Positions 8,896-60,683 of a DNA stretch of 64,000 nucleotides are shown here, piece by piece. Source of the stretch: an uncultured Opitutaceae bacterium (GTDB lineage: Bacteria; Verrucomicrobiota; Verrucomicrobiia; Opitutales; Opitutaceae); assembly GCA_903891325.1 (NCBI GenBank), contig CAITEC010000036.1, forward strand, positions 1 through 64,000, given 5' to 3'. A program made the position numbers and the translations under genes. Numbering within the stretch: position 1 is the first letter of the stretch; each line of letters starts with the position of its first letter. The notes under the pieces were generated by a model. The model saw only the letters and a program-made list of their open reading frames with translations, did not search any database and was not told where the DNA came from.

Positions 8896-8919
8896 TCCAA
8901 GCTAATACTCCGTGTAGCC

Positions 8920-8983
8920 GGGATCGGTTCTATCTGGGATCGATTGTATCTGGGATCGATTGTAGCCGGGATCGATTGTAGCC
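8920..8983. repeat. Four tandem copies of a 16-bp unit
   Basis: Units start at 8920, 8936, 8952 and 8968 (type GGGATCGATTGTATCT, the last two ending in AGCC). The array lies 24 bases after a glycosyltransferase stop and abuts the double-hairpin repeat at 8977-9048, whose first bases overlap the last unit. GATCGAT is itself nearly palindromic. No function is evident. Confidence 0.8.
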
Positions 8984-9048
8984 GGGGTCCCAGACCCCGG
9001 TGCATTGGAGATCGGCTCCGCCGTCCGGGGTCTGGGACCCCGGCTACA
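8977..9048. repeat. Double-hairpin intergenic repeat (TGTAGCC family), copy 1
   Basis: Arms 8977-9000 and 9025-9048 are perfect 24-bp inverted repeats with a 24-base centre. Each arm is itself a hairpin (CCGGGGTC-nnn-GACCCCGG). The same architecture, TGTAGCC ... two hairpins ... GGCTACA, recurs at 42619-42667. It lies between convergent genes (stops at 8895 and 9066) and may act as a bidirectional terminator, but there is no T-run. Confidence 0.85.
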
Positions 9049-9065
9049 TCTGAATGCCCCCCGTC

Positions 9066-10265: not shown

Positions 10266-10343
10266 GTTTAGCGGTCCAACCTACGGCTTCGCTTCGGCCG
10301 AGGCAAACGGAAATAGCGCGTGGACGAACCCGAACTCCAATCC

Positions 10344-10503
10344 ATTTGAACAGGAAGGCCGGTGTGACCGGTAAGGCCGGAATGGAAGGGCCCAAATTCA
10401 AACATTGGAACCAACTGTGGTCGGCGAATCCAGAAATGGCTCCGGAGGTAGTTGGGTTGTGACGGATCGACCTTCTCGGTCTTCCCGACCTTCCTGTTCA
10501 AAT
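10344..10503. repeat. 160-bp intergenic element with perfect 15-bp inverted ends
   Basis: The left end 10344-10358 (ATTTGAACAGGAAGG) is the exact reverse complement of 10489-10503. The right-hand segment, CTTCCCGACCTTCCTGTTCAAAT, is repeated at 21932-21954, where a shorter relative is bounded by similar ends. It contains no open reading frame of note. It occupies most of the 287-base gap between the alpha-oxoamine synthase and the methyltransferase, whose promoters must therefore be inside or beside it. It looks like a MITE-like dispersed repeat. Confidence 0.75.
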
Positions 10504-10552
10504 TGCTCTTCGGTGTTTGAGTGAATGCGGAAAATCGTTTTCGCTTTGCCGG

Positions 10553-11305
10553 ATGTCCGACGATCCGAAAGCAGGCGAAAAGGCGTACTACGCGCGGCTC
10601 GGCGAGGAGGGGCGTCGCCACGCCCTGGAGAAGCCGTTCTCGGACCCGAACTGCGGCAAATACCTGTGCAACCTTGGTTCGCTCCTCCTCATGCTCGAGC
10701 CGGCGCCGCGGTCGGTGCTCGATTTCGGCTGCGGCACCGGTTGGACGACGCTTTTTCTCGCCCGGGCGGGCTACGACGTGCTGGGTGTGGACATTGCCGA
10801 GGACGCGATAGCGATGGCGCGCGCGCACGCCGCGGAAACCGGGGTGTCCGGGGCCGCGTTTGAGGCGGCCGACTACGAGGGTTTCCAGACCGATCGGCTC
10901 TTCGACTACGTGCTTTTCTACGACTCGCTGCACCACGCTGAGGACGAGGCCGCAGCGCTCGCGGCGGCCCATCGGGCGTTGAAGCCCGGAGGGGTCCTCT
11001 TCGCCTTCGAACCGGGGCGCGGGCACAGCCGCAGCGCCCGGGCCCGGCATGCGGTCTCCGAGTTTGGCGTCCACGAGAAGGACATGCCGCCGTCCCACAT
11101 CTGGCGCCTGGGGAAGCGGATCGGTTTCAGCAGGGCGCTCTTCCTGCCGCTCCCCCACGAGGCCGCGCGGGGCCTGTACCGGCGCGACTACCTGCGCGCC
11201 CGCGGCCCGCTCATGCTCCAGCTCGAGAGGCTCTGGGGATTCTACCGGGCCGCATCACAGTTCCTGCGCCTGCGGCGCCTGGGGCTGGTGGTGATGTGGA
11301 AGTAG
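10553..11305 (+). CDS. Class I SAM-dependent methyltransferase
   Basis: 250 residues from the ATG at 10553 (MSDDPKAGEKAYYARL). An upstream ATG would add twelve residues encoded in the repeat-flanking DNA. The SAM-binding motif I is VLDFGCGTGWTTLFLA, followed by an acidic residue at the end of beta2 (VLGVDIAEDAI). Motif III/IV FDYVLFYDSLHHAEDE and the post-motif ALKPGGVLFAFEP are typical of small-molecule methyltransferases. The C-terminal ~60 residues are basic and partly hydrophobic. The substrate is unknown. The setting among glycosyltransferases suggests methylation of a sugar or lipid, an inference only. Confidence 0.85.
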   Translation: MSDDPKAGEKAYYARLGEEGRRHALEKPFSDPNCGKYLCNLGSLLLMLEPAPRSVLDFGCGTGWTTLFLARAGYDVLGVDIAEDAIAMARAHAAETGVSGAAFEAADYEGFQTDRLFDYVLFYDSLHHAEDEAAALAAAHRALKPGGVLFAFEPGRGHSRSARARHAVSEFGVHEKDMPPSHIWRLGKRIGFSRALFLPLPHEAARGLYRRDYLRARGPLMLQLERLWGFYRAASQFLRLRRLGLVVMWK

Positions 11306-11313
11306 GGAACTTG

Positions 11314-11420
11314 CAGAAACCTGAGACCTGAAACCTGAAACCGAACCAAGGCACCAAGACCGCCGATCCTAAGGTTTGAAGGATCGACTCAGGTTTCAGG
11401 TCTCAGGTTTCAGGTTTCTG
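11314..11420. terminator. Long inverted repeat between convergent genes
   Basis: Arms 11314-11342 and 11392-11420 pair at 27 of 29 positions across a 49-base loop. The arms are built from a short CCTGAAA repeat. The right arm includes the last codons and the TGA of the minus-strand glycosyltransferase. Position between convergent stops suggests a bidirectional terminator. The lack of a T-run makes this moderate, and it may be another dispersed palindrome. Confidence 0.5.
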
Positions 11421-12585
11421 TAACGTTGCCCCTTCGGGGCAACGTGCCCATCCAATCCCGAATCTCCCGCGCGTAATCCGCAGGCGTCTTGAACGTTCGC
11501 CCCCGCGCCTCGGCTTCCAGGCGCGCCAGGAGGACCCGGTCCCCGATCAGGCTCCCGATCGCGCCGGCCAGGCTCGCGGCGTCCACGGAGTCGAGTGCCA
11601 GGCAGCCGCCGCCCCGGGCCGACTCCCCGAGGGCGCCGCGGCCGGAGCACACGCAGGCCCGGCTGCGAAGCAAGCTCTCCGCGACGGGAAGCCCGAAACC
11701 CTCCATGAGCGAAGGATAGACGGTGAACGCGCACCCGGCGTAGGCGGCCTCGAGCGCGGCGTCGTCCACGACGCCGTCGTGGCGCACTGGGCGGCCCCGG
11801 GCGCGAAGCGCCGCGATTCGTTCCAGGGCCGCGCGGCCCGTCTCCGGCCGGGCCGCGCCAATCAGCCTGAGATCAAAGAGGGCGCCCCGGTCCCAGAGCG
11901 CGGCGCAGGCGTCGAGAAGCGCGGCGTGGTTCTTCCTGCCCTCGATTGTCCCGACCGAGAGGACGACGGTCGCCCGCCTTTCCAGGTTCGGGATCACCGG
12001 CGGACGGCCGACTCCAAGCGTGATCGCGGCAACCGGGGGGTGATTTCGCACCCCGAGCCACTCCCAGTACTCGAGGAGCGCATCGCGGGCGTCCGCGGAG
12101 ATTGCGGCTATGCCGTCGAAGGCCTCCAACTCGCGAAGATAGGCGGGATAGCGGGCGACGGTTCCCGCCGGGGTCAGCTCGGGGCGCTTCAGGGCCACGG
12201 CGTCGTAGAACACCGCGGCGCGCGGACCCGGGACTGCCGCGAAGAGGGCGGGCAGGGCGGCCGCCGCCCCGGGCGAGAAAATCTCCGGCGCGAGGAGACC
12301 GTCCGGACCCCCGCGGACAAGGCAGCGGGTGGATCCGGAAAAAATGCGGCCGGCGATTCCCGCCAGCCGGGTCCGGAGGGGCCAGACGGCGCGGCGCTTT
12401 CCACCCGCGGGAGCCGCGGCCAGGTTGGCGCGCTCGGTCGCCGTCAGCGCCCGCCAGGCCTGGGCGTAAGGATCGAAGCAGACCGGCTCCGCCGCGGCCC
12501 CCAGTTCCGCCCACAGCCCCCGGGCGACCCTCTGGATTCCGGTCAGCGCCCGGGTGTGGCTGGTGTGGGTGAGGTCGAGGAGCAT
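11410..12585 (-). CDS. GT4-family glycosyltransferase
   Basis: 391 residues, start MLLDLTHTSHTRALTGIQR at 12585. The opening (LDxT-----TGIQRVARGL) is a hallmark of GT4 enzymes that often sit in O-antigen clusters. The C-terminal domain has VVLSVGTIEGRKNHAALLDA and VYPSLMEGFGLPVAESLLRSR with the catalytic Glu pair. It is a homologue of the enzyme at 7675 and shows how that protein would look without the repeat insertion. The last three codons lie in an inverted repeat. It starts 20 bases after the stop of the upstream GT-C-like gene, so the two are probably co-transcribed. Donor and acceptor are unknown. Confidence 0.87.
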   Translation of the reverse strand: MLLDLTHTSHTRALTGIQRVARGLWAELGAAAEPVCFDPYAQAWRALTATERANLAAAPAGGKRRAVWPLRTRLAGIAGRIFSGSTRCLVRGGPDGLLAPEIFSPGAAAALPALFAAVPGPRAAVFYDAVALKRPELTPAGTVARYPAYLRELEAFDGIAAISADARDALLEYWEWLGVRNHPPVAAITLGVGRPPVIPNLERRATVVLSVGTIEGRKNHAALLDACAALWDRGALFDLRLIGAARPETGRAALERIAALRARGRPVRHDGVVDDAALEAAYAGCAFTVYPSLMEGFGLPVAESLLRSRACVCSGRGALGESARGGGCLALDSVDAASLAGAIGSLIGDRVLLARLEAEARGRTFKTPADYAREIRDWMGTLPRRGNVTET

Positions 12586-42671: not shown

Positions 42672-45600
42672 TCAGACCCGCGGCGGCGACGCCAGCGTGA
42701 AGTCGTTCAGTTCCAGCGTCAGGTTCGGATTATAGGCCGGATCCCCCGTCAGCAGCGGTCCCCAGCGCAGGAGCATCAGCTCCACCTCCCGGCGGAAACG
42801 CTCGGCCTTCTCGGGCGTGTCGTCGGATCCGCGGCTGGCGCTCTCGTGGTGGTAGAACTCGGCAAAGGGGGTCCACAGGTTGAGATAGCCGGCCTCGCGC
42901 ACCTTCAGGCAGAAGTCCACGTCGTTGAAGGCGACCGCCAGGTCGACCTCGTCGAGCCCGCCGACCTGCTCGAAGACCGCCTTCCTGACCACCAGGCAGG
43001 CCGCGGTGACCGCGCTGTAGTTCTGGACCAGCCGCGCCCGGTTGAACTTTCCCTCCGTCCCCCGGGGAAAGCTGAGGAAGGCGTGCCCGGCGACACCGCC
43101 CAGGCCGACGATCGACCCTGCGTGCTGGATCGTGTCGTTCGGGTAGTAGAGCATCGCCCCGACGCATCCGATCTCGGGGCGGAGCGCCTGCGACGCCATT
43201 TCGTCCAGCCAGCCTGGCGTGATCACCTCCAGGTCGTTGTTGAGCAGGGCCACGAGCTCACCGCGGGCGTCGCGGACCGCGAGGTTGTTGATCGCCGAGT
43301 AGTTGAAGGGCTTGTCGTGCCGCAGGACCGTGACGCTGCGGGCGGCGACGCCGCGGCCGCCCCATTTCCGCGCCAGTTCCGTGAGATAGTCGAGAGCCGC
43401 CGGGTCGTCGGAGCCGTTGTCGACGATGATCATCTCGAAGCGCGGGTAGGTCGTCTTTTCGAGGATGCTTCCGACGCAGCGGCGCAGCAGTTCAAGACCG
43501 TTTCGGGTCGGGATGATGATCGAGACCAGCGGGGCGGGGTCCGGCAGGGAATAGCGGACCCGCCAGTGGTCACCGGGAACGGGGACCAGGTCCACCTTGC
43601 GGCCGGTCCTCTGGAAGTGCTCCGTGAGGGCGCGGCGTGCCGCCTCGAGCGGGTAGTTTTTCTCGCTAAGCATCAGGGCGGTCGAGCCCGGGATCGCCCG
43701 CCAGTGGTAAAGCACCTTGGGGATGTGCCGGACCCGGGAGACGTCGGTGCGCTCCCAGACCCTCAGTGCCAGGTCCCAGTCCTGGCTTCCCTCGAAGCCG
43801 GCCCGAAATCCGCCGGCCTCCCTGACGAGGGAGGTGCGATAGACGGACAGGTGCGAGGTGTAGTTCTGCGCGAGGAACAGGTCGGGGAGGAAATCGGGCT
43901 TGAAGTAAGGCTCAAAGCGCCGGTCCTCCTCGTCGATCTTGTCCTCGTCGCTGTAGATGAAATCGGCCCTGGGGTCCGAGGCGGCAATGGAGGCCACCTC
44001 GAAGAGGGCACCGGGAGCGAGCGTGTCATCGTGGTCCAGGAGCGCCACAAAGTCGCCGGTTGCGAGTTCCAGGGCGGAATTTGAGGCCGCGGAGATGTGG
44101 CCGTTCTGTGGCCGGAACACGGCCTTGATCCGGGGCTCCTCGCGCAGGTAGCGCTCGAGGATCCGGCGCACGTGGGGCTCCGGCGACGCGTCGTCGGCCA
44201 CGCACAGTTCCCAGCGGGGATAGGTCTGCGCCCGGACCGATTCTATCGCCTTCACCAGGTAGACCTCGGGCGTGTTGTAGACCGGCATCACGATCGAGAT
44301 CAGGGGCTGGCGGGCCAGGAGGGACGAGGCCTCGGCCTGGCGGCGGAGCTCGTCCGGCCCGGCCTTCTCGTAGGCCCGAATCCACTCCTCGTAGGAGGTG
44401 AGGTCGGGAGGGCCGCAGTCCTCCCCGACGCGGAGCGCGGTGTGGAAGAAACGATGCCAGGCGCCATCCTCGTCGGAAACCTCCAGGTCGAGCAGCGAGT
44501 CGGCGGGCGTTAGCGGCAGGTCGATTCGCCAGCCGCAGTATTCGGCCTGGGGCCTGTCCTTTACCGAGGCGTAGACATCCAGCCGCTTCAGGCCATAGGT
44601 TCCCGAAACGACCCGGCCGGGAAGGACGGCCCGGACCCCGGTCAGCCGGGTGCCGTCCTCGGCGAAGCACCAGCCCCTCATGGACACGGTGCGGGGCCTG
44701 AAGCTCCAGCTCTGGGGATAGTCGACACTGCGCACAAAGAGCGGGTTGTCCGCCCCGTCATCGTCTGCTGCGGCCGCCGGCGCCGGGAGGATGGGATCAG
44801 CCCCGGAAACGGCCGCCGGCGCGGGAACCGCCTTTCGCGGGTCGAGGAGCTTGCGCCGCAGGAAACGAAGGAACGAGGTCGCCCGCCAGGAGAAGCTCGA
44901 CTGCAGCGCCGCGATCTTCATGTCCCGCGCGCGGATCGACTCGTCGCGGGAATGGATGGTCCGGGTTAGATGGTCGCACTGCGCATCCAGCTCGCGGACG
45001 CGCCGCGAGAGGTCCTTGCGCAGCTTCTCGAGGTTTGCCGCGTGCTGGCGGGTGAGGCGGAAACCCTCCACGCTCTTCGCGAGCCGGCCCCGGACCGCCA
45101 CCAGGTCCGCCTCTGCGGACCGGAGCTTGTCGCGGGTGAGCGCGGCGCCGGACTCCATGTCGGCCGCCAGGAGCGCGAGATCGGCGGCCAGCGCCGCCGT
45201 GTCGCCCCCCCCGGGGGCGAGCGTTGCGGCGAGGCCGGCGGCGGCAAGGGTGGTCTCGGTCGTGCCCGGCTTCTGGAGCCGCGCCCATCGCGCGTGCACC
45301 GGGCGGCCCATGGCGTCGGCGTAGGCGGCCTCCAGCCGGGCCGCCGCGTCCGCCAGGTCGAAATGCCGGCGCGCGAAGTCCCGGCCTCCCTGTGAAAGCC
45401 GGGCGGCGAGGGACGGGTCGGAGAAGACGGCGCCGCACGCGTCGGCGATGTCCTCGGGCGTTCCCGTGCCCAGGAAGAGCGCGTCCTCGCGGTCGCGCAT
45501 GTGCGCCGCGATGTTCGACCGCGGCAGGATCACCGGCTTTCCCATGGCCAGGAACTCCGGAAGCTTGGACGGGAGACGGCAATCGTTGAAGGGCCCGGGG

Positions 45601-46460
45601 CGGCCGGGCTGCACGAGGACGTCGGCCAGGGCGAGTAGTCGGGGCAGGAGCGCCTTGTCCACGAAGCCGAGGTCGACCACGCACTTTTCCCAATCGAAGC
45701 CGAGCGAGGCCTTGAATGCGGGCGAATTGAAGCCGGTCCGGACGAGCCGGGTCGGCGTGCCCCGCTCGTTGAGGAGCTTCACGGCGAGGTAGAGCTCCCG
45801 CATCTCCGGCCCGTTGGCGTAGGTGTTGCTCCCGGTGAAGACGATCACCCGCTCGCCGTCGCGAATTCCCAGCTCCCGCCGGAGCTCGGGTTCGGGGCGC
45901 AGGGGCCGGTACATCGAGAAATCAACGCCGGGCGGAAGGAGGTGAACGGGAATCCCGGGCGGTGCGAAGGGACGGAGTCCCTCGACGATGATCGTGATCC
46001 CGTCGGCGGCCCGGAGCAGGTTGTGGTAGCGGAGCGGATTCACGAGCCCGTCGGGGAGGGTCTTCGCGAGCGCGGCCTCATCGAGCCCTCGGAGCTCCGC
46101 AAGCGGCCTCCCGGCGTACGCCTTCGCCAAAAAATCCTCGTTGTCCTCGAGGTGGATCAGCAGCCGGGCCGGCGACCGGCGCTGGTGCTCGATCACGAAG
46201 CGCCGCACACCCTCCCGAGGGGTCCAGGCGTGGACAATGTCGGCGGCCGCGCCATTGGGAAAAAGCCGGGGGCGGGCGAGAACTTCCTCGTACGACGCGG
46301 CAATGAAACCGGGATCCGCGACCGCCCGGATCGTGTCCAGGCCCCCCGGCACCGCCACCACGCAGGAGTGCCCGCTCCCGGAGAGCCGGTTCGCGAACCC
46401 GCCGATATGATTGAGGCTGTTGGTCGTGAAATCGCCGTAGTTGACGAAGAGGATGTTCAC
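42672..46460 (-). CDS. Giant GT4-coiled-coil-GW-GT2 fusion glycosyltransferase
   Basis: 1262 residues from a GTG at 46460 (VNILFVNYGDFTTNSLNHIG); the open frame extends ~150 codons upstream without recognisable protein. Residues 1-~390: GT4 domain (IVFTGSNTYANG, then PGPFNDCRLPSKLPEFLAMGKP). ~500-565: coiled coil ending SSFSWRATSFLRF. ~577-675: GW domain (SMRGWCFAEDGTRLTGV). ~715-960: GT2 domain (ISIVMPVYNTPE, CVADDASPEP and VALLDHDDTLAPGAL), then a second GT2-type module (LVSIIIPTRNGLELLRRC, NNDLEVITPGWLDEM, EVDLAVAFNDVDFCLKV). It probably adds two or three sugars in sequence. Isolated transcription unit; a dispersed repeat follows its stop. Confidence 0.87.
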   Translation of the reverse strand: MNILFVNYGDFTTNSLNHIGGFANRLSGSGHSCVVAVPGGLDTIRAVADPGFIAASYEEVLARPRLFPNGAAADIVHAWTPREGVRRFVIEHQRRSPARLLIHLEDNEDFLAKAYAGRPLAELRGLDEAALAKTLPDGLVNPLRYHNLLRAADGITIIVEGLRPFAPPGIPVHLLPPGVDFSMYRPLRPEPELRRELGIRDGERVIVFTGSNTYANGPEMRELYLAVKLLNERGTPTRLVRTGFNSPAFKASLGFDWEKCVVDLGFVDKALLPRLLALADVLVQPGRPGPFNDCRLPSKLPEFLAMGKPVILPRSNIAAHMRDREDALFLGTGTPEDIADACGAVFSDPSLAARLSQGGRDFARRHFDLADAAARLEAAYADAMGRPVHARWARLQKPGTTETTLAAAGLAATLAPGGGDTAALAADLALLAADMESGAALTRDKLRSAEADLVAVRGRLAKSVEGFRLTRQHAANLEKLRKDLSRRVRELDAQCDHLTRTIHSRDESIRARDMKIAALQSSFSWRATSFLRFLRRKLLDPRKAVPAPAAVSGADPILPAPAAAADDDGADNPLFVRSVDYPQSWSFRPRTVSMRGWCFAEDGTRLTGVRAVLPGRVVSGTYGLKRLDVYASVKDRPQAEYCGWRIDLPLTPADSLLDLEVSDEDGAWHRFFHTALRVGEDCGPPDLTSYEEWIRAYEKAGPDELRRQAEASSLLARQPLISIVMPVYNTPEVYLVKAIESVRAQTYPRWELCVADDASPEPHVRRILERYLREEPRIKAVFRPQNGHISAASNSALELATGDFVALLDHDDTLAPGALFEVASIAASDPRADFIYSDEDKIDEEDRRFEPYFKPDFLPDLFLAQNYTSHLSVYRTSLVREAGGFRAGFEGSQDWDLALRVWERTDVSRVRHIPKVLYHWRAIPGSTALMLSEKNYPLEAARRALTEHFQRTGRKVDLVPVPGDHWRVRYSLPDPAPLVSIIIPTRNGLELLRRCVGSILEKTTYPRFEMIIVDNGSDDPAALDYLTELARKWGGRGVAARSVTVLRHDKPFNYSAINNLAVRDARGELVALLNNDLEVITPGWLDEMASQALRPEIGCVGAMLYYPNDTIQHAGSIVGLGGVAGHAFLSFPRGTEGKFNRARLVQNYSAVTAACLVVRKAVFEQVGGLDEVDLAVAFNDVDFCLKVREAGYLNLWTPFAEFYHHESASRGSDDTPEKAERFRREVELMLLRWGPLLTGDPAYNPNLTLELNDFTLASPPRV

Positions 46461-46929
46461 GCGGCGGTTAATTCGATTTGAGCGGAAAGATCGGGCAGGC
46501 GTCAGTTCGGTGATTAGGCATGTGCTGGCGGAAACGTCGAGCCGAAGTGCTTCTTCGAGTCCCGGAGTCCTGCAGTTGATAGGAACGATCAATTCAGACA
46601 AGGAGGTAATGGGGCCATTGCGCGAAATCCGCGGATGACGCCGGGCGGTCGGTGCCTGCGCGCATGGAGCGAGCCGCTTCGGCATAAGGCCCCGACACTT
46701 GGCCTGCCGCCGTTGCTGGAAGCAGCCAGGGGATTGCCAGATTCGGCATTGCAGTGGCTCGGATACTTCAGCCAGAGTTTCCCGATGCCCCCGGAAATGA
46801 AGGAGGACAGTGCCCGCTGCATGGCAAAGTCTCGACGCGGTCCAGGCGATGTGCCGTCGATATCCGCCGAAGGAGCCGTGTGGCAAAGCCTGAAAGGTCG
46901 CCCGGCCCAACACTTGGCCTCTTGAAGCA
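46461..46929. other. 469-base stretch without a recognisable gene
   Basis: Between divergent genes. Two small plus-strand open frames occur (46441-46638 and 46635-46925), joined by an ATGA overlap, and one minus-strand frame is the open extension of the giant glycosyltransferase. None shows a conserved motif. An AGGAGG at 46600-46605 precedes ATG at 46608, but that frame closes after nine codons. Text such as PEMKEDSARCMAKS in the second frame looks protein-like, but its family was not recognised. The stretch probably holds promoters for both flanking genes and perhaps the remains of a lost gene. Confidence 0.4.
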
Positions 46930-47955
46930 ATGAAAAACCTGGTAACCGGCGGTTAGGGTTTTCTCGGTTCGCGGATCGTGCGTCGGCTCGCTGAACGCGG
47001 CGAGGAAGTCATCTCCGTCGACCTTTGGGAAGACACGGCGCGGCCCCCGGGTGTGCGGTATTGCCGATGCGACGTGCGCGATCGAGCGACACTGGACTCG
47101 CTCATGAAAGGGGTGGATGTCGTGCATCACAACGCCGCGCTAGTCCCCCTGGCAAAATCGGGAAAGGAGTTCCGGGCGGTCAACGTTGACGGTTCGCGGA
47201 TCGCGGCGGAGGTTGCCGCGGCGAACCGGGTCAAGGCGTTCATCCACATGAGCTCCAGCGCGATCTTCGGGATCCCCAGCCAAGTCCCTATCACCGCAAG
47301 TACCCGCGCGCTTCCTGTCGAGGCATACGGGCGTTCGAAAATGGACGGCGAATCCGCGGTCAGCAATGCCTGCGCCCGAGGCGGCATTCCGCTGATCATC
47401 GTGCGGCCCAGGACAATCCTTGCAGAGGGAAGGCTCGGCATTTTTCAGATTCTCTTCGATTGGATCAGTGAAAGTCGATCAGTGTACGTGATTGGCAGCG
47501 GTGACTTTCCTTACCAGTTCGTCCATGCGGACGATCTTATGGATGCCTATCTCCTCGCACTCGACCTCGGTAAACCCGGCATATACAACGTGGGCACGGA
47601 CGACTACGGGACGTTGCGCGGCACTCTCGAGAGCATCATTTCCTTCGCGCATTCGAGGTCGAAAGTCAGAAGCCTGCCGGTCTGGCCGACGATCACAACC
47701 CTGGGGATTCTGGACCGGCTCGGCCTGATCCCGCTCGCTCCGTGGCACTATCTGACTTATCACAAGCCGTTCGCCTTCGATGTCGAGCCGCTCAAGAAGC
47801 TTGGCTGGAAGCCGCGATATTCCAATGACCGGATGTTTCAGTCCAGTTACATGTGGTTTCTGGAACATCGATCGGACGTGGTTTCAGATTGCGCTTCGCC
47901 GCACCGAAAGGCGGTTAGGGAGGGCATTCTCAGGATTCTAAGGAATCTTTCCTGA
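46930..47955 (+). pseudogene. NAD-dependent epimerase interrupted by an in-frame TAG
   Basis: From ATG 46930 the frame reads MKNLVTGG, then TAG at 46954-46956, then GFLGSRIVRRLAERGEEV. The stop therefore replaces the variable residue of the Rossmann TGGxGFLG motif, and 332 codons of intact extended-SDR sequence follow (VDVVHHNAALVPL, FIHMSSSAIFG, YGRSKMDGESAV, RPRTILAEGRLGIF, FVHADDLMDAYLLALD). A GTG at 46978 could restart translation but would lack the NAD-binding loop. TCG to TAG is a one-base change, and Ser is common at this position. Candidate roles: nucleotide-sugar epimerase or, if recoded, a full enzyme. The next gene carries a similar defect. Confidence 0.8.
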
Positions 47956-47956
47956 A

Positions 47957-48382
47957 ATGGCGATCGGCGAGATCCTCAAAAAGGCAAAGGCGGACTCGCT
48001 GCCCCTGTTTCTTCTGGGCGCGGCGGTTGTAGCCGGCCCGGCGCTTTTCTTTGGACCGTGGCTTCCGTTGCTGGACACGATCGCCTTTTCGGCGCTCAAC
48101 AGCTTCCCGGCGAAACAGTCCTACGGACCGTTCCACTATTATGTTTTCGAGTTCACCTACATGCTGCCCCTGATCCTGTGCCGTGCATGCACGGACTTCG
48201 GCATCCATGTCCGGTGGCAGGTATTGTTGTTCTACCTGACCGAGGGGCTGGTCGCCTTCTTTGTGGTATGGAGGTTGATCACGCGGCTTGTTGAAAATCC
48301 GCTGGTCCGCTGCGTCGGCTGTAGCCTGGGCGCGCTGGCCTTTTGGGATGGGCTTTTCCTTTGGGGCGGCCCGTTGGCATAG
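47957..48382 (+). CDS. N-terminal part of a membrane protein ending at an in-frame TAG
   Basis: 141 codons starting one base after the epimerase stop. Four hydrophobic segments are visible (SLPLFLLGAAVVAGPALFFG, ILCRACTDFGIHV flanks, WQVLLFYLTEGLVAFFVVW, ALAFWDGLFLWGG). The TAG at 48380 is followed in the same frame by SLAAAALALAAVLSIMEAEQ and the 477-residue downstream frame, so both pieces belong to one ~634-codon gene. The break falls within a transmembrane region. Either the gene is decaying or the stop is read through; both are inference. Confidence 0.7.
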   Translation: MAIGEILKKAKADSLPLFLLGAAVVAGPALFFGPWLPLLDTIAFSALNSFPAKQSYGPFHYYVFEFTYMLPLILCRACTDFGIHVRWQVLLFYLTEGLVAFFVVWRLITRLVENPLVRCVGCSLGALAFWDGLFLWGGPLA

Positions 48383-48427
48383 TCGCTGGCGGCAGCGGCC
48401 CTGGCACTGGCGGCGGTCCTGTCGATA

Positions 48428-49861
48428 ATGGAGGCTGAACAGGGGACGGCCGACGGGACCGGAAAGGTTGCGCTGCTGTGTGCCTTGGCGGTGGTGAGCC
48501 ACCCATTCGCCGTGCCGTTTGCCCTGATCCTCGTCGCAGTGAGGCTGGTGCTTCTGAAGCGGGGGCGCCTCAGGGGCGCCGCCCTGCTTGTGACGTTGCT
48601 CGCCTATGGGGTGCTTGTCCGCATCGACAGCCCGGAGGGCGCGGGTGGGGGCGGGCTGGGCGGACTTTTTGGCGCGGTGCCGCGGCTTTCCTGGTCCCGT
48701 GCCGTCTCATTCGCGACCTGGGATTCGGCGACTGTGCTCGACGTCCTTGGGGTGAGTACGAGAAGCATCTCCCTGCTGTTTTCCACGTTCGCGGCGGTGA
48801 GGTTGGCGGGATTCGTCGCATCCCCGGTGGCCCTGTTTGTCGCGCGGCGCTCTCGTGCGATCACGATGCTCGCCGCGATGGATGGGATCGTCGCGGTCCT
48901 CTATCTCTTTGCGAACGACACTAACTTTATTTCCTACTGGCCGCAGCGGATCCTGACCTTGAATTCAAGCATCACCTACGCCGCCGGGGTTGTGCTGCCC
49001 TACGTCGTGGTCAAATCCCTCATGGGTCGGGAACCGCTTGGCCGGCATTCGATCCCGCGTCGCACCCATCTTCTTTGCATCATCCTTCCGTTCGTCATTT
49101 CGATGGCCCTGGTCAACGTGCAGATCCCTGTAATGCGGCTGGGCCCGGCCATCAGGGTGAATTATCGCACTGCCCGCCAGGCGTTGCTTGAAATGGGATT
49201 GCACGATTCCACGGTCTACTGCGCGGGCTTCGGCAATATCCATCCAAACTATCTTCGTTGCATTCCATTCCTCCTCTTTAGCGACAGTCACGTGCTGGCC
49301 AGGAACCTTGTGCTCGTTACGGAATGGCATTCGCAGCCCAGGCACCCGTCCAGGGTCGCGGAGCGCGAGCTGGATAAGGCCGGCTTCGGAAGCGTGCGTG
49401 TCGCCTGCGGGGTGAACTTTGCAATGAAGGACGGGATGGTGATCGCGCGGCAGGGAGATTATTCCGTGGATAGGACCCTTAGAATCGATTCATGGTCGGG
49501 CCTGCCTAGGGGCGAAACGGGATGGCCGATTTTGACGACTGGGCACCCGGACGACGGCAATTTCGTCTATGCGGTGGCGGTCGGGCGCGGTTTGGCGGAG
49601 ATACGCCTTGATCGGTGGGGTTCGCTGCCGCTTCGAAGCGCGCCGTTTTCGATCGAGGGCAACGGCGGCCACTTGGTGAGGGTACGGCTGGGTGCCGAGG
49701 CCGCAGAAGTGGACTTGGACGGAGAACGCATTCTGGGATTTGCGGGTGACCTGGGCGACCTGGCTACGCCCGAATTCAAGGAGAATCACATCGGAGGGAC
49801 GGCGGCGGTCGAATACTGGAGGGGAGGCCCGGGCGGCGGGCGCCCCGATCTTGCCCCTTGA
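48428..49861 (+). CDS. C-terminal part of the same membrane protein
   Basis: 477 residues if translation restarts at ATG 48428, 45 bases after the TAG; without the stop the frame is continuous from 47957. Six or more hydrophobic segments (VALLCALAVVSHPFAVPFAL, LLFSTFAAVRLAGFVASPVALF, HLLCIILPFVISMALV and others) are followed by a soluble ~260-residue tail with GMVIARQGDYSV and FVYAVAVGRGLAEI. The layout resembles the other membrane glycan proteins here (helices, then a beta-rich C-terminal domain). Its family was not recognised. The stop is at 49859-49861. Confidence 0.68.
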   Translation: MEAEQGTADGTGKVALLCALAVVSHPFAVPFALILVAVRLVLLKRGRLRGAALLVTLLAYGVLVRIDSPEGAGGGGLGGLFGAVPRLSWSRAVSFATWDSATVLDVLGVSTRSISLLFSTFAAVRLAGFVASPVALFVARRSRAITMLAAMDGIVAVLYLFANDTNFISYWPQRILTLNSSITYAAGVVLPYVVVKSLMGREPLGRHSIPRRTHLLCIILPFVISMALVNVQIPVMRLGPAIRVNYRTARQALLEMGLHDSTVYCAGFGNIHPNYLRCIPFLLFSDSHVLARNLVLVTEWHSQPRHPSRVAERELDKAGFGSVRVACGVNFAMKDGMVIARQGDYSVDRTLRIDSWSGLPRGETGWPILTTGHPDDGNFVYAVAVGRGLAEIRLDRWGSLPLRSAPFSIEGNGGHLVRVRLGAEAAEVDLDGERILGFAGDLGDLATPEFKENHIGGTAAVEYWRGGPGGGRPDLAP

Positions 49862-49897: not shown

Positions 49898-51955
49898 ATG
49901 GAAGTCCATGGAGCACTTCCATCACCCACGCCCCCGGGAAAATCTGCGCGGCTGCGTGACGCGCTTGGGGCCGCGCTCGCCTCGGCCCTGGCGCTGGCGC
50001 ACCTCCTGCAGTGCGTGATCTTCTCGGGTTTTCGCCTCGTCCCCGGCGACATCGGGGACGGGCGCTTCAACAACCTCGTCCTTGAGCATTTTCTCCAGGC
50101 TCTCCAGGGCCGCTACCCGTTCCTGTCCCCGGGCCAGTTTTTTCCGCTCACCCACACGCTCGAGTACAGCGACAACCACTGGGGCACGGCGTGGATCTAT
50201 GCCGGATTCCGCCTCCTGGGGATCGATGTGGAGGGGGCCTTTGTGGGCTGGCTGGCGGTGATCTGCGTCCTCAATGCAACGTCCCTCTTCGTCCTGCTGC
50301 GGGAGACGGGGGTTTCGCGCTCCCTTTCCGTGCCCGTCGCCTTTTTTGGCGTGGCGTCGTGCGCCGTGCTCAGGCAGATCGACCACCCCCAGGTACTCCC
50401 TTTCTTCCCGTTCATCTGGTGCCTCTTTTTCATTTTCAGGGCGTGGCGTGACGGGGATATCCGGTATCTCGCGCCCGCCTTCCTGCTGTTTGCCTACCAG
50501 TATTACTGCTACCTCTACGAGGGCCTTTATGGGCTCGTGCTCCTGGGGCTGCTTCTCGCCTTCATACCTTTCCTGCCCTACGGGAGGCCCGAATTCGCCC
50601 GGTCGGGGCCCCGGTTCCGGACCGCGCTCCCGATCCTCGCCGCTGCCATTTTCCTCGGCACGGCCGCCCTCGTGTTCCTATTCCTCCCCTACGTTTCCCT
50701 CGTCCGGTCGCATGGCGGCGCGCATCCCATCTCGGAGCTGATCAGCATCTCTCCGCGATGGTCCTCCTGGTTCACGGCGGACCCCAACAGCCTCCTGCAC
50801 CGGAAGCAGGATTTCCTGCCGACGGAGGGGATCGCGATCGCCGAGAACGCGCTTTTCAACAGCTGGGTCCCGTGGGTGCTCGTGCCCGTGGCGGCGATCA
50901 TAATCCATTCCAACCGGCGCTCCCTTTCCGATCGCTTCGAGCTGAACCTGATTCTCGCCTGCCTCCTGGTCTGGGCTTCCACGCTCTTGCTGTTCACGTG
51001 CTGGGGCCCGCAGGTGTCATCCGTCTATGTCGCCATCTGCCGGTATGTCGCCCCGCTGCGCGGGTTTCGGGCCATCAGCCGCATCGCGTTGCTTCTTGGC
51101 GTGATCCAGGCCGTCTTTGCGGGACTCGTGCTCGAGCATCTGCGGTCCCGGCCGCGGCCGGGCGGCCTGCGCCTGCTTGCGGTCGTCGCAGCGTGGGTTC
51201 TCGCCGTCGACACGGTCTCCGTGGGCGAAATCTCCTACGACAGGGGGGCCGAGAGGGCCCGCTACCTTTCGATAGCCGCGCAGTGGCGCGAGAAGGGCCT
51301 GGGGAAGCCCCTCGTGTTCGCGCCGGGCTACACGAACCAACCCTGGTACGCGGTGCAACTCGACGCATGGTCGGCGGCGCTGGCGGTCCACGGCGCGACA
51401 TTCAACGGATACACGAGCGCCGTCCCCGACGGGTACGCTTTTCCCCCGTTCCTCGCGAACTCAACCCTCCAGAATGCGGGGGCGCTTCTCGACAGGCTGC
51501 ATTTGCCCGCGAGCGGTGCGGCCATCGTGACCGACTGGGGCCCGCGAGTCGACCAGGAGCAGGGTATCCAACGGTGGAACCTGAATGCGAGCTTTGCCCC
51601 CCGGACATCCATGAGGTCCCTCCAGCTGCGCCCGTTGGAAATCGTGACAATCCCGGTGACCCTCGATTACAGGGGCGACAGGGTTCTCGACCTCGAGGCC
51701 GACAATATCTTCATATCCTACCGGCTTCTCGACGCCGTGCACCGGCACGTCGACTCGCCCCCGAGCATGCGGACGCGCCTCGCGACCTACTCCGCGCTTC
51801 GGCCCGTGACGATCCGGATGTTCATCCAGGCCCCCGGGCAACCCGGCGACTACACGGCCCACCTCTCGATGGTCCACGAATTCGTCTCCTGGTGGGAGGA
51901 CGAGGGCTTCCCCGGCGACATCGTTTCGATGACCGTGCGCCCGCCGCTGCCCTAA
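49898..51955 (+). CDS. Multi-pass membrane protein with large soluble C-terminus
   Basis: 685 residues. Starts at ATG 49898, 36 bases after the previous stop. After a first helix (ALASALALAHLLQCVIFSG) comes VPGDIGDGRFNNLVLEH, an aspartate-rich first loop as in GT-C-like proteins. About nine transmembrane helices reach residue ~430, and the last ~250 residues are soluble with QPWYAVQLDAWSAALAVHG. Its overall plan matches the YfhO-like protein at 30350 and others. The stop (51953-51955) touches the convergent transaldolase gene, and the two overlap by four bases. Possible lipid-linked sugar transferase; not proven. Confidence 0.78.
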   Translation: MEVHGALPSPTPPGKSARLRDALGAALASALALAHLLQCVIFSGFRLVPGDIGDGRFNNLVLEHFLQALQGRYPFLSPGQFFPLTHTLEYSDNHWGTAWIYAGFRLLGIDVEGAFVGWLAVICVLNATSLFVLLRETGVSRSLSVPVAFFGVASCAVLRQIDHPQVLPFFPFIWCLFFIFRAWRDGDIRYLAPAFLLFAYQYYCYLYEGLYGLVLLGLLLAFIPFLPYGRPEFARSGPRFRTALPILAAAIFLGTAALVFLFLPYVSLVRSHGGAHPISELISISPRWSSWFTADPNSLLHRKQDFLPTEGIAIAENALFNSWVPWVLVPVAAIIIHSNRRSLSDRFELNLILACLLVWASTLLLFTCWGPQVSSVYVAICRYVAPLRGFRAISRIALLLGVIQAVFAGLVLEHLRSRPRPGGLRLLAVVAAWVLAVDTVSVGEISYDRGAERARYLSIAAQWREKGLGKPLVFAPGYTNQPWYAVQLDAWSAALAVHGATFNGYTSAVPDGYAFPPFLANSTLQNAGALLDRLHLPASGAAIVTDWGPRVDQEQGIQRWNLNASFAPRTSMRSLQLRPLEIVTIPVTLDYRGDRVLDLEADNIFISYRLLDAVHRHVDSPPSMRTRLATYSALRPVTIRMFIQAPGQPGDYTAHLSMVHEFVSWWEDEGFPGDIVSMTVRPPLP

Positions 51956-52696: not shown

Positions 52697-53242
52697 TCAT
52701 TCAATTGACGTGTTCTGCAAGACGATAGCGACCGCCTCGACAAAGGAGCGCGCCGTGAAATCGGGGGCGACATCCAGCTTCTCGGCGTAGCCAAAGTCGA
52801 TGAAGACGGTGCGGACTCCCGCGCGGCGGCCGCAGTCCACGTCGCGCCAGCGGTCGCCGATCATCCAGGATCGGGCCAGGTCGATGTCCAGCGCGGCGGC
52901 GGCGTCCAGGAGCATTCCCGGTTCCGGCTTTCGCCGGCGGGACGGTTCGCCCAATCCGGGGTCGTAGCACACCTCAATCCGGTCGATCTCCGGGATCAGC
53001 GAGAGCAGCTCGGCGTGCATCGCCTCGACGACCGTCCGGCTGACCCGGCCGCGGCCCACGTCGGGCTGGTTGGTGGCGACAACCAGCTCGAAGCCGGCGG
53101 CCTTGATCCGGCTGCAGGCCTCGGGCACCCCGGGGAAAAGCTCGAACTCGTCCACCGTGTCCGGAGAGAAGGGCTTCCCGTCGCGGATCGCCTGGACGTT
53201 GAGTGTGCCGTCCCGATCTACAAATACCGCGCGCTTTTTCAA
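52697..53242 (-). CDS. gmhB: D-glycero-D-manno-heptose bisphosphate phosphatase GmhB
   Basis: 181 residues from a TTG at 53242 overlapping the gmhA stop as TTGA; a GTG five codons upstream is an alternative. HAD-superfamily phosphatase with the DxD motif AVFVDRDGTLNV, the threonine motif VVATNQPDVGRG, CYDPG (a zinc-type cysteine), RRRKPEPGML with the conserved lysine, and SWMIGDRWRDVDCG. It removes the 7-phosphate from heptose-1,7-bisphosphate. The context of gmhA, hddA and hddC supports the heptose reading over histidinol phosphatase, the main homologous alternative. Confidence 0.9.
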   Translation of the reverse strand: MKKRAVFVDRDGTLNVQAIRDGKPFSPDTVDEFELFPGVPEACSRIKAAGFELVVATNQPDVGRGRVSRTVVEAMHAELLSLIPEIDRIEVCYDPGLGEPSRRRKPEPGMLLDAAAALDIDLARSWMIGDRWRDVDCGRRAGVRTVFIDFGYAEKLDVAPDFTARSFVEAVAIVLQNTSIE

Positions 53243-53835
53243 CGAGTCGACTCCCACTTGGTCTGGTTCGCCTTGAGGTCGGGGTGGGAGACGAAGAGGT
53301 GCCAGATGACCGCCTGAAAGGCCTCGGAGTGGGGGGTCACGGTCTCGGGGTTCACGATCGGCACGATGACGCAGGCATCCGCAACCTTGGCGGTGTGGCC
53401 GCCGTCGCGTCCGACGATACCGATGATCCGGGCCCCGACCTGCTTGGCGAGCTGGAGCGCCGAGACGAGGTTTGGCGACACGTTCTTCTCCAGGTTTCCA
53501 CCGCCGACGGAAAGAACGAAAACGCAATCCTTGGCGTTCAGGCGGCTGCCCCTGAGCCACTCCACGAAGACGCTCGCCCATCCCTCGTCGTTGGTCCGGG
53601 CGGTCAGTTCCGAAACGTTGTCGGTCGGCGCATAGGCCTCGATCGCGGCGATCTTCCGCAGGTCGTTCACGGCATGGGACGCATTCGCCGCGCTGCCCCC
53701 GACCCCAAGGATAAAGAGCCGCCCACCGCGCTCCCGGACTGCGATGAGCTCCGCGACGCACTTCTCGCAGTCGGCCGGGTTGATGCGGGCGGTGATCTCA
53801 GCAGTTTCCTTCAGGTGCCGAACGGAATGGGACAT
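53239..53835 (-). CDS. gmhA: Sedoheptulose-7-phosphate isomerase GmhA
   Basis: 198 residues. A single SIS (sugar isomerase) domain: LFILGVGGSAANASHAVNDL, then FVLSVGGGNLEKNVSPNL and ARIIGIVGRDGG. It converts sedoheptulose-7-phosphate to D-glycero-D-manno-heptose-7-phosphate. The active-site glutamate is expected in the SEAFQAVIWHLF helix. 37 bases separate it from the hddC stop, and it overlaps gmhB. Other SIS proteins (DiaA, phosphosugar regulators) lack this operon context. Confidence 0.92.
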   Translation of the reverse strand: MSHSVRHLKETAEITARINPADCEKCVAELIAVRERGGRLFILGVGGSAANASHAVNDLRKIAAIEAYAPTDNVSELTARTNDEGWASVFVEWLRGSRLNAKDCVFVLSVGGGNLEKNVSPNLVSALQLAKQVGARIIGIVGRDGGHTAKVADACVIVPIVNPETVTPHSEAFQAVIWHLFVSHPDLKANQTKWESTR

Positions 53836-53872
53836 GATCTTGTTCTGTTTGCGGGGTTTGTTCCTTGGCGGT

Positions 53873-54595
53873 TCAGGTGATTATTTCCGGACCCCCAGCC
53901 TTGAGAAGCCGGTCGAGTTCCGCAAGCCCGGCGGGTGAGCCGATCTCATAGAAGCGCTCGCCAATCTCCAGGCCGGCGAGTTCCCCCCGGGCGACGAGGG
54001 AACCCTGCACTTCGGCCAGATCCACGACCGCATCGCGGGAAAACCCGTCGAATGCACCGGCCCGGAACACGCCCAGTCCGTAGTCGATATGATGCATCTG
54101 GGGAATCCTTGTCTTCTTGTCGTAAACCCGGATCCGCCCGTCCTCGAACCAGACGTTGCTCGAATCGTATCGGCCGCGATTCTCGTAAACGGTCATCAGC
54201 CCGAGCTTTCCGGCCTCAAGAAACCGCTCGCCCGCCGCCCGGTAATCGATCGGCAGGTAGCTGTCTCCGTAGAGAACATAGAACGCCCCGCCGAGGAGCG
54301 GAAGCGCCCGGATGAGCGCCCCGGCCGTCCCGAGCAGCTTGGGTCCGTCGAACGAGTATTCGATTCTTACCCCCCAGGCCGCACCGTTGCCGTATCTCTC
54401 GACGATCTGCTCCCCGAGGTGGCCGACGCAAAGGACGATCCGATCCAAACCGGCGCCCTTCAGCAGGCGGAGTTGATGGGAGAAGAAGGGTTCCCCAGCC
54501 ACCTCGACCAGGAGCTTGGGAATCGTGTCGGTGTGGGGACGCAGCCGCGTGGCCATTCCGCCGGCGAGGATCGCTACGGGAAGCGCTGGGGACAT
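53873..54595 (-). CDS. hddC: D-glycero-alpha-D-manno-heptose-1-phosphate guanylyltransferase HddC
   Basis: 240 residues from the ATG at 54595 (MSPALPVAILAGGMATRLRP). Nucleotidyltransferase fold: AILAGGMATRLRPHTDTIPK at 8-27, the metal-binding YVLYGDSYLPIDY, and the C-terminal GERFYEIGSPAGLAELD. The family includes ManC-like and heptose guanylyltransferases. Placement between the kinase hddA and the isomerase gmhA decides the heptose-1-phosphate/GTP role. It would make GDP-D-glycero-alpha-D-manno-heptose. Eight bases separate it from hddA. Confidence 0.88.
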   Translation of the reverse strand: MSPALPVAILAGGMATRLRPHTDTIPKLLVEVAGEPFFSHQLRLLKGAGLDRIVLCVGHLGEQIVERYGNGAAWGVRIEYSFDGPKLLGTAGALIRALPLLGGAFYVLYGDSYLPIDYRAAGERFLEAGKLGLMTVYENRGRYDSSNVWFEDGRIRVYDKKTRIPQMHHIDYGLGVFRAGAFDGFSRDAVVDLAEVQGSLVARGELAGLEIGERFYEIGSPAGLAELDRLLKAGGPEIIT

Positions 54596-54603
54596 CGACG
54601 GGG

Positions 54604-55587
54604 TCAGTTCTGCGCGACGACCTTCGTGCCCTCGAAGTCGAAGCGGAAACGCACCTCTTGGAGGCCCTGCTCGCGCATCGCATGGCGAAGCTTCTGCTTG
54701 TCGGCCGCGTAGAACATCAGGAAGCCACCGCCGCCCGCCCCGATCACCTTCCCGCCAATGGCACCGTTTTCCAACGCATGGTCGTACCACCCGTTGATCG
54801 CCGGGTTGCTCATGCCGGAACTGCGCGCCTTCTTGTGCTGCCAGTGGACATCCATCAGCCGGCCAAATTCCTCCAGGTTTCCGGACTCGAGCGCCGCGAG
54901 GGACTTGAGCCCGAGCTCCTTCGTGAAATGCAGGTTGTCCAGCATCGCCTTGTCCTGCTGCTTTGACCGGTCGTTCTGGTCCTTGAGGATCGATGAGGCG
55001 CTGCGGGAATATCCGGTAAAAAAGAGCAGCAGGTTGTCCTCAAGGTTGAAGAGAGTCTCCTCGGAGATCCTGCAGGGCCGGTATTCCACCCGCCCGTCGG
55101 GGTGAAAGGTGAAGGCGGTTATGCCTCCGACCGCCGCGATGTATTGATCCTGCTTGCCGATCGGCTCGCCGAGGCGGTTGATCTCGATGTCGCAGGCCTG
55201 TTCCGCGAGCTCGGCCGGGGAGATTGGATGCCTCCGGTACGCATGCAGCGCCTTGAGCAGGGCTGTCGTGAAGCTTCCGGACGAGCCGAGCCCCGTTCCG
55301 CCCGGAATGTCGGCCATCGAGGTGAGTTCCAGATGGGGACCGATGACCCCGGTCAGCTTGAGCGCCTCGCGAATAATCGGGTGCTGGATTTCGTCGACGG
55401 ACGCCACTCGCTCCATCTTCGAGTACTTGATGATGATCTCCTCCTGGAACGTCCGGTGCTGCGTGATGTAGACGTACTTGTCGATTGCCGCAGCGACGAG
55501 GAACCCCCCGAACTCACGGTAATAGGAGGGCAGGTCGGTGCCTCCTCCTCCCAGGGATATCCGCAGCGGTGATCGGGTGATGATCAT
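54604..55587 (-). CDS. hddA: D-glycero-D-manno-heptose 7-phosphate kinase HddA (GHMP family)
   Basis: 327 residues from ATG 55587, which overlaps the oxidoreductase stop (ATGA). GHMP kinase: RSPLRISLGGGGTDLPSYY (about 5-23) and the phosphate loop DIPGGTGLGSSGSFTTALL; the C-terminal IGGKVIGAGGGGFLMFY is motif III. It phosphorylates C1 of heptose-7-phosphate in the alpha series used for GDP-heptose. A fucokinase-like enzyme is the alternative, but the neighbours favour heptose. Confidence 0.92.
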   Translation of the reverse strand: MIITRSPLRISLGGGGTDLPSYYREFGGFLVAAAIDKYVYITQHRTFQEEIIIKYSKMERVASVDEIQHPIIREALKLTGVIGPHLELTSMADIPGGTGLGSSGSFTTALLKALHAYRRHPISPAELAEQACDIEINRLGEPIGKQDQYIAAVGGITAFTFHPDGRVEYRPCRISEETLFNLEDNLLLFFTGYSRSASSILKDQNDRSKQQDKAMLDNLHFTKELGLKSLAALESGNLEEFGRLMDVHWQHKKARSSGMSNPAINGWYDHALENGAIGGKVIGAGGGGFLMFYAADKQKLRHAMREQGLQEVRFRFDFEGTKVVAQN

Positions 55588-56585
55588 GGCTTTATGTAGC
55601 CGCTTTTCCGGTAGATTGTCTCTACAATTTCGAGGACGCGGATCCCGTTGGCCAGGGAGACACCCGATTTGCGATCCAGCCGGATGTCTTCGGCGAAGGC
55701 CTCCATTTCCAGCCTCCACGAGCCGTCGTCTCCCGGGTATTCCCAAGTCGTCGCCTCCGGTGGGCCCATCTCGGGGAGCATGCGATAAAACGTGAGGCGC
55801 TCGACGCCGTAGCTCCCCCCGAGGCCGTCGATTGCGATCTTTCCGTTCCTCCCGTAGATCTCCAGGGAGAAGAGGTTCTTCCACTCCGTGCAGCTTACGT
55901 GCAGCCAGGCTGTCTGGCCGGCGGCGGTCCGCAGGCTGAGGAACGCGTTGTCATCGACCTTCATGTCCCAGTAGCTTGTCGTCGCGTGGCCCTCGATGGT
56001 CGGAAGGTCGCCCAGGAACCAGCCGGCGAGGTCGATCAGGTGGACCCCCTGGTCGATCAATTCCCCTCCACCGGAGAGCGCGGGATCGGCGCGCCACTCA
56101 CGATCGTAGCCCTTCCGCCCGCCGTGCCCGTAGCGGGCGCGGAGAAAGAGGAGGGGGCCGAGATTCCCGGCATCGACGAGTTCGCGTGCCTTCCGGATTC
56201 CGGGATGAAGCCGGTGATTATAGCTGACATGGACCCGCACGCCCGCCTTTGCGGCCTCTGCGTCGAGGATCCGGAGCTGGCCGGCGTTCAGTCCGCCGGG
56301 TTTCTCGATCAGCACGTGCTTGCCGGCGCGGACGGCGGCGAGCGCGACCGGGGCCAGCGTCGAATTCGGTGTCGAGACGATCACGACCTGGACCCGCGGG
56401 TCGGCGAGGACCTCGCCGACCCCCGCGACGGCGATGCACCCGGGCGCCAGGGCCGCGACAGCGGCCGCCCTCGTGCGGTCGGTATCGCAGGCGTAGCGAA
56501 GAACGGAGCCGGGCAGGGTGGCCAGCGCGGCGGCGCGCTTCCGCCCGATTAGGCCGCAGCCGACCTGGGCGAAGGAAATCTGCAT
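55584..56585 (-). CDS. Gfo/Idh/MocA family oxidoreductase
   Basis: 333 residues from ATG 56585 (MQISFAQVGCGLIGRKRA); seven codons further upstream is another ATG. NAD-binding VGCGLIGRKRAAAL, cofactor-site EKPGGLNAGQL with the conserved lysine (VLIEKP), and the catalytic region GGGELIDQGVHLIDLAGWFLG are all present. Such enzymes oxidise or epimerise sugars or inositols. As first gene of the operon with hddA-hddC-gmhA-gmhB it may alter the heptose or another sugar. Its substrate is not evident. Confidence 0.87.
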   Translation of the reverse strand: MQISFAQVGCGLIGRKRAAALATLPGSVLRYACDTDRTRAAAVAALAPGCIAVAGVGEVLADPRVQVVIVSTPNSTLAPVALAAVRAGKHVLIEKPGGLNAGQLRILDAEAAKAGVRVHVSYNHRLHPGIRKARELVDAGNLGPLLFLRARYGHGGRKGYDREWRADPALSGGGELIDQGVHLIDLAGWFLGDLPTIEGHATTSYWDMKVDDNAFLSLRTAAGQTAWLHVSCTEWKNLFSLEIYGRNGKIAIDGLGGSYGVERLTFYRMLPEMGPPEATTWEYPGDDGSWRLEMEAFAEDIRLDRKSGVSLANGIRVLEIVETIYRKSGYIKP

Positions 56586-56723
56586 TGTCAGTTCAACGGC
56601 GGCCATGGTCGGGGATGGGAGAGGGAAGGCTCCCTTCGCGCGGGAAGCTGCGCAAGCCCGTTCTGGACGCGCGGCCGGGCCGGAAGTTCCCTTTCTTCGT
56701 GACCTTCAGGGGTATCCTGTCCA

Positions 56724-58770: not shown

Positions 58771-59742
58771 TCAGGCCGACCGCTCGTAGACCCAGCGGTT
58801 CGCCGCGAGCCAGCGGAGGGTCTTCACGATGCCCTGCTCGATGGTCAGCTTCGGTTTCCAGCCAGTCGCCTGGATTTTTTTTGTCTCAAGGAAGATGAAT
58901 GGGTTGTCCCCGATCCAGCCGCGGTCGCCACCGGCAAAACGGAGTTCGGGACTCAAGCCTAGCGCCGCGCAGATGATTCGTATGCTGTCCTTGACCTGTA
59001 CGTACTCCGGCGTCCCTAGGTTGTAGATCTGGGTATGGTGCGGCGCTTTCGCCGCCGTGCCCAGGCCAGCGACATGGAGGATGGCGTCGATGCAGTCCTG
59101 GACGTACAGGTAACTTTTCCGCTGTGTCCCGTCGCCGAGGACCCGGAGCCAGGTCGGATGCTCCGTCAGTTGCCGATGAAAGTCGAAGATGTGGCCGTGC
59201 GTGTAACGCTCGCCCAGGATCGAGACGAAGCGGAAAATGTAGGCTTCGAAGCCGAATGCCTCGCCGTATGCCGAAATGAGCCCCTCGCAGGCGGATTTTG
59301 AGGCCCCGTACAGGGATGTCTGGACGGGAAATGGAGCGTCCTCCGGTGTGGGAATAATGGCTGCCTCCCCGTAGACTGATCCGGTGGAGGAAAACACCAG
59401 GCGCCGGATCTTGTTCGACCGCATGGCCTCAAGCACGTTGAAGGTAGCAATCGTATTCTGCTCGAGGTCTTTTCCCGTGTGTTCCGGGCCGAAACGCACA
59501 TCCGCGTTCGCCGCCAGGTGAAAGACCAGCTCGCAACCGTGCATGGCGGCGGTCAGGGCGGAAACGTCGAGATTGTCGCCGCGAGCGAGGCGGAATCCGG
59601 GATGGGTGACCGCTCCTTCGAGAAACCGTGCGTCCCCGGTCGAAAAATTATCCCAGCCAACAACCTCGGCGCCGGCGAGGAGCAGCCGGTCTACGAGGTT
59701 GGAGCCGATGAATCCGGCGGCCCCGGTCACGAAATATTTCAT
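58771..59742 (-). CDS. NAD-dependent nucleotide-sugar epimerase (UDP-glucose 4-epimerase-like)
   Basis: 323 residues from ATG 59742, overlapping the upstream methyltransferase stop (ATGA). Extended SDR: MKYFVTGAAGFIGSNLVDRL, GWDNFSTGDARFLEG, VFHLAANADVRFG, LVFSSTGSVYGE and YGASKSACEGL. The pattern is close to UDP-glucose/UDP-N-acetylglucosamine 4-epimerases. An exact substrate is not claimed. The longer open frame upstream is the methyltransferase in another frame. Confidence 0.88.
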   Translation of the reverse strand: MKYFVTGAAGFIGSNLVDRLLLAGAEVVGWDNFSTGDARFLEGAVTHPGFRLARGDNLDVSALTAAMHGCELVFHLAANADVRFGPEHTGKDLEQNTIATFNVLEAMRSNKIRRLVFSSTGSVYGEAAIIPTPEDAPFPVQTSLYGASKSACEGLISAYGEAFGFEAYIFRFVSILGERYTHGHIFDFHRQLTEHPTWLRVLGDGTQRKSYLYVQDCIDAILHVAGLGTAAKAPHHTQIYNLGTPEYVQVKDSIRIICAALGLSPELRFAGGDRGWIGDNPFIFLETKKIQATGWKPKLTIEQGIVKTLRWLAANRWVYERSA

Positions 59743-60683
59743 GGGAGCTGCCTCGTTTCCTTGCCCAGTACCAGGACGCATCGAATCCCGCAGGGGTAGG
59801 ACAGCAGAGAGCTGAAGGCGGCTTCCAGCCGCATGACCAGAGAAAAGAGCGGGCTGGCCCTGGTGTTTCGGATCTGCCGCAGCACGACCCTCGATTTTTC
59901 GTCCTCTGGGGCCGACAGCTTCCGGCGATTCCACTTCTTCACGCACCAGAAGGCGGGGTAGGGCAGGAACCCGAGATGCGTCGCCTTTTTCACCGTGAAA
60001 CCGGCCGCAATTGCAAGCGCCCTGATCTCGGAAAGGCGATAGCGGCGGTAGTGCATCAGGTGCTCGTCGTATATGTCGTGGAGGGCGGGGTTTGACGGAA
60101 CCTCGATGTGGGCGATCCCCCCGGGCTTGAGTATCCGGTGCATATGCGCAAGCGCGGAGGCGTCGTCGTCAATGTGCTCGAGGACGTTCAGGCAGGTGAT
60201 TCCGTCGACGCACGAATCGGGCAGGGGACACTTTCGGAGGTCGAATTGCAGAAGTGGAAGCCCGGGCATCTGCCCAGCCATCTTCTCAAGGGGGCCGGGA
60301 AGGTAGTCGGCGCCGATCATGTCCGCTTCCGGCAGCGCCCGGGAAAGGTCCTCGAAGATGAAACCGGAGGCGCACCCGGCGTCGAGGATCCGGAGCGGGC
60401 GGCGGGCGGCCAGCCTTAGCATGCTGCGCACGGCGAGCCGGCGGGACTCCCGGCCGATCGGGTGTTCACGGCCGGCCTCGATCTCATTCATGTCGGAAAG
60501 CCGGTCGTTCCAGTGGCTGTCCGTCGCGTCGTAGGCCAAAACGCGAACCTGCCCTGAATCCAGCTCGAACGAGCCGCCAGTCCAGCGCGGTCGCGCGGCG
60601 GATCCGGGGGGCGCCGGCCAGGGGAAGTCGTCCCCGGAAAAAAATCCCCGGCGCCGTTCGTCAACCTGCAATCCCGAAGTCAT
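59739..60683 (-). CDS. Class I SAM-dependent methyltransferase
   Basis: 314 residues. An unusual N-terminal ~65 residues with zinc-finger-free Pro/Arg-rich text precedes the fold. SAM motif I is ILDAGCASGFIFEDL, then IGADYLPGPLEKMAG, GITCLNVLEHIDDD and ILKPGGIAHIEVPSNP. The block HDIYDEHLMHYRRYRLSEI is characteristic of glycan-cluster methyltransferases that act on lipid-linked or nascent glycans. The C-terminus is hydrophobic (LFSLVMRLEAAFSSLLSYP), suggesting membrane contact. Follows the GT2 by 18 bases and overlaps the epimerase. Confidence 0.86.
   Translation of the reverse strand: MTSGLQVDERRRGFFSGDDFPWPAPPGSAARPRWTGGSFELDSGQVRVLAYDATDSHWNDRLSDMNEIEAGREHPIGRESRRLAVRSMLRLAARRPLRILDAGCASGFIFEDLSRALPEADMIGADYLPGPLEKMAGQMPGLPLLQFDLRKCPLPDSCVDGITCLNVLEHIDDDASALAHMHRILKPGGIAHIEVPSNPALHDIYDEHLMHYRRYRLSEIRALAIAAGFTVKKATHLGFLPYPAFWCVKKWNRRKLSAPEDEKSRVVLRQIRNTRASPLFSLVMRLEAAFSSLLSYPCGIRCVLVLGKETRQLP

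Follow-up and report, generated by a model that had tools for sequence, protein, structure and literature searches.

In a 64,000-nucleotide stretch of the draft genome of an uncultured Opitutaceae bacterium (hereafter the window), two consecutive genes, encoding an epimerase and a membrane protein, are each interrupted by a single in-frame TAG, which raises the question of whether both genes have been inactivated or whether TAG is somehow read through in this genome (Table 1). Translation bore out the claim of an earlier note on this DNA that the damage to the reading frames goes no further: the epimerase gene (46930-47955) is open in one frame save for the TAG at 46954, and the membrane-protein gene (47957-49861) is open in one frame save for the TAG at 48380, with alignments to homologues that run through the site. 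The two genes are probably recent nonsense pseudogenes in a redundant, dispensable accessory operon for glycan synthesis.

Table 1. Positions in the window of the two interrupted genes, their in-frame stops and possible restarts, and the intact neighbouring genes.
Feature	Position	Strand	Remark
Extended-SDR NAD-dependent epimerase gene, interrupted	46930..47955	+	Predicted product of 8 residues
In-frame TAG at the variable residue of the Rossmann motif TGGxGFLG, codon 9 (site 1)	46954..46956	+	
First possible restart codon downstream in the epimerase gene, GTG	46978..46980	+	
Multi-membrane-span protein gene, interrupted	47957..49861	+	
In-frame TAG, codon 142 of 635, after conserved LAFWDGLFLWGGPLA (site 2)	48380..48382	+	
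First downstream ATG in the membrane-protein gene	48428..48430	+	
Third gene in the row, 685-aa membrane protein, intact	49898..51955	+	
Divergent multi-domain glycosyltransferase (GT1 and two GT2 domains), intact	42672..46481	-	Start near 46481 inferred

The epimerase still matches Pfam family PF01370 when its first nine codons are left out (E 1.7e-32), and has homologues in many phyla with up to 64% identity. Alignments of these homologues cross site 1 with a single sense residue there, which is serine in 53 of 58 sequences, alanine in four and asparagine in one, TCG being the most frequent codon; none of the 58 has a stop at this position. As originally proposed, the TAG occupies the variable residue of the glycine motif. 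A product restarted at the downstream GTG would be without the whole Rossmann glycine motif, which binds NAD.

The membrane protein has no match to any Pfam or NCBIfam family, and is putatively glycosyltransferase-C-like. Six homologues with 34-40% identity are encoded by other genomes in this taxonomic family, and each aligns over 447-559 residues in one stretch that spans the TAG. The residue at site 2 is phenylalanine in four of the six, histidine in one and cysteine in one, and a stop in none. Although both TAG codons are one base from TCG, as had been pointed out, serine is thus the usual residue of homologues only at site 1, and never occurs at site 2. A stretch of contig C13 of genome G018 has two homologues of the membrane protein in tandem (7377-12377 of that stretch), both with a C-terminal TPR-like extension that is absent from the membrane-protein gene of the window. 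A restart at the first downstream ATG of the window gene would leave out the conserved N-terminal membrane part.

At both sites the homologues carry a sense codon and align to either side of it, each TAG thus standing in place of exactly one residue. Ribosomes would release the epimerase after 8 residues and the membrane protein after 141 of 634 and, because restarts would yield proteins without the NAD-binding motif or the N-terminal membrane part, neither gene should give a working product.

Whether TAG is a stop in this genome was assessed in a sample of 385 kb, consisting of the window and 17 stretches of the same genome, in which 263 gene models were called with a simple codon-usage score. 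The earlier note had treated TAG as a true stop in this genome, and had suggested a count of the genes that end in it and a search for an amber-decoding tRNA. The count agrees: TGA terminates 169 of the models, TAG 69 (26%) and TAA 25, and TAG is a working terminator for which release factor RF1 (with its PVT motif) is present and open, as is RF2 (with its SPF motif). The search returned no tRNA with a CUA anticodon among 41 matches, an inventory that is incomplete in having no tRNAs for tryptophan, tyrosine or isoleucine. Two weak matches on contig C57 were rejected as amber tRNAs, being tandem truncated copies of tRNA-His (GTG); they lie 230 bases apart at the end of the contig (C57:1-400) and are perhaps an artefact of the assembly end.

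A search that read through stops found no interrupted gene in about 60 ABC-domain matches or in 20 glycosyltransferase (GT2) matches, and among 28 SDR epimerase matches only the copy in the window is interrupted, the 27 others being uninterrupted. No other gene split by an in-frame stop was seen in the sampled 385 kb. Nine pairs of same-frame neighbours, with long gaps or with the second gene uncalled, were rejected as split genes upon inspection by eye, and have the appearance of distinct neighbouring genes or of spurious antisense frames. The TAG terminators of the sample are followed by G (30), C (21), T (11) or A (6), and the G and T that follow the two in-frame TAGs are ordinary for terminators of this genome. 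The frequent use of TAG, the intact RF1 and RF2, the lack of a CUA anticodon among the 41 tRNA matches and the lack of any other in-frame TAG in the genes sampled leave recoding unsupported. Of the two explanations first offered for the locus, recent inactivation on the one hand and read-through or recoding on the other, the evidence favours inactivation, although the sequence would also allow a low level of read-through.

That both stops are TAG is unremarkable. There are 247 one-step nonsense changes possible in the two genes, and 126 of them (51%) yield TAG; given two nonsense mutations, the probability that both are TAG is about 0.26, or 1 in 4. If indels are about a tenth as frequent as substitutions (a ratio of 0.1), it would be somewhat unusual, at roughly 5%, for both lesions to be nonsense with no frameshift. 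Because no other split gene was seen in the sample, two in adjacent genes represent local clustering, as would be expected of one operon under relaxed selection.

The alternative that survives best, itself unlikely, is that the draft genome, which has 140 contigs and 94.7% completeness, is wrong at one or both sites through an error of assembly or consensus, or records a minority strain allele there. Assembly errors are known to produce false pseudogenes, and an internal stop in an assembly is frequently an artefact (Cooley and Wright 2024, PMC11017572). The two genes resemble such spurious pseudogenes in belonging to a draft assembly and in having internal stops without other decay, but the rest of the sampled genome has no general excess of internal stops, and, short of poor local coverage, two errors within 1.5 kb would be coincidental.

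It is very unlikely that a useful amount of read-through takes place at the TAGs, with expression lowered rather than abolished, in the manner of regulatory in-frame stops. The frames are intact beyond both stops, and for bacteria functional in-frame stops that remain under purifying selection have been proposed from stops common to orthologues of several species (Belinky et al. 2021, PMC7918605), which are likewise isolated and keep an open frame. In contrast to those, the stops of the window are found in no homologue at either site; the bases that follow them are ordinary for terminators, and codon 9 of the epimerase, in the NAD-binding loop, is an unlikely control point. The more specific proposal that the species keeps the two TAGs as low-level read-through switches that throttle the glycan operon is highly improbable, and if the stops were functional, such paired amber control within a single operon would be a rarity. 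That TAG is a sense codon by virtue of a suppressor tRNA or an amber-recoding element is hardly credible: both stops are TAG, and a CUA tRNA could be absent from an assembly in which no tRNAs for tryptophan, tyrosine or isoleucine were found either, but a quarter of the gene models end in TAG, RF1 is intact, and in-frame TAG occurs only in these two genes across everything sampled. The locus chiefly serves as a caution that a pair of isolated ambers should not be read as recoding.

If both genes are nonsense pseudogenes, the redundant accessory operon would have ceased to be useful, a nonsense mutation would have knocked out one gene first, and the second gene, freed from selection, would have been lost soon after. 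In an operon that is no longer selected, the adjacency of two stops is expected. Nonsense pseudogenes in accessory polysaccharide clusters of bacteria similarly have single in-frame stops in otherwise intact frames, and share the setting of a lower-GC accessory locus with functional redundancy. Nothing distinguishes the two genes of the window from these; the same stop codon in two adjacent genes is expected in about one case in four.

Redundancy is evident for the epimerase, which has an intact paralogue with serine at site 1 elsewhere in the genome (C62:28208-29230). The two are sisters (support 100/98) with 66% identity. The C62 epimerase adjoins genes for a HAD-UbiA prenyltransferase-like protein and an FAD-oxidoreductase, one or both of which are also located near most epimerase homologues in other phyla; the epimerase of the window has neither neighbour. 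Within C62:18300-38200, the intact epimerase, the HAD-UbiA gene and the FAD-oxidoreductase gene follow one another at about 6600-10920 of that stretch. This set of genes, whole or in part, is found from Cyanobacteria to Rhizobiales, and recalls the UbiA/DprE1/DprE2 route to polyprenyl-phosphate sugars.

Identity between the window and C62 epimerase genes is 0.71, 0.79 and 0.43 at the first, second and third codon positions, a pattern typical of past purifying selection. Among 106 strongly conserved columns, the window epimerase deviates from the consensus in 9 and the intact C62 copy in 14, which leaves little time for decay; judged from these comparisons, the epimerase appears to have been lost recently relative to its own history. 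The membrane-protein gene departs from its homologues at 29 of 100 invariant columns, compared with 2-18 in 73-89 columns for the others, and may either have decayed for longer or merely be the outlying sequence of a small set. The earlier impression that there is no frameshift or other decay thus holds for both frames and, by comparison with homologues, for the epimerase; for the membrane protein it may or may not hold by that comparison. What the locus apparently captures is a duplicated sugar-modifying gene at an early stage of loss, with its intact sister and the usual partners elsewhere.

Neither gene has a close match in any of the 12 other genomes of the genus. From about 46 kb the G+C content is 0.60-0.65, compared with mostly 0.65-0.71 before, and it recovers to 0.68-0.69 around 80-84 kb along the contig. 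The existence of a sister copy, the missing partner genes, the lack of close copies in the genus and the low G+C content all fit a redundant, accessory and perhaps acquired glycan locus. The third-position G+C content of the two broken genes (0.71-0.77) was rejected as a sign of long decay, since it is equally low in intact neighbours in the region (0.69-0.73). Further along the window, a row of genes on the reverse strand (53239-56606) encodes a SIS isomerase, a nucleotidyltransferase, a GHMP kinase and a GFO/IDH/MocA protein; together with a GDP-mannose dehydratase-like epimerase gene at 58771-59946, it resembles a GDP-heptose sugar pathway.
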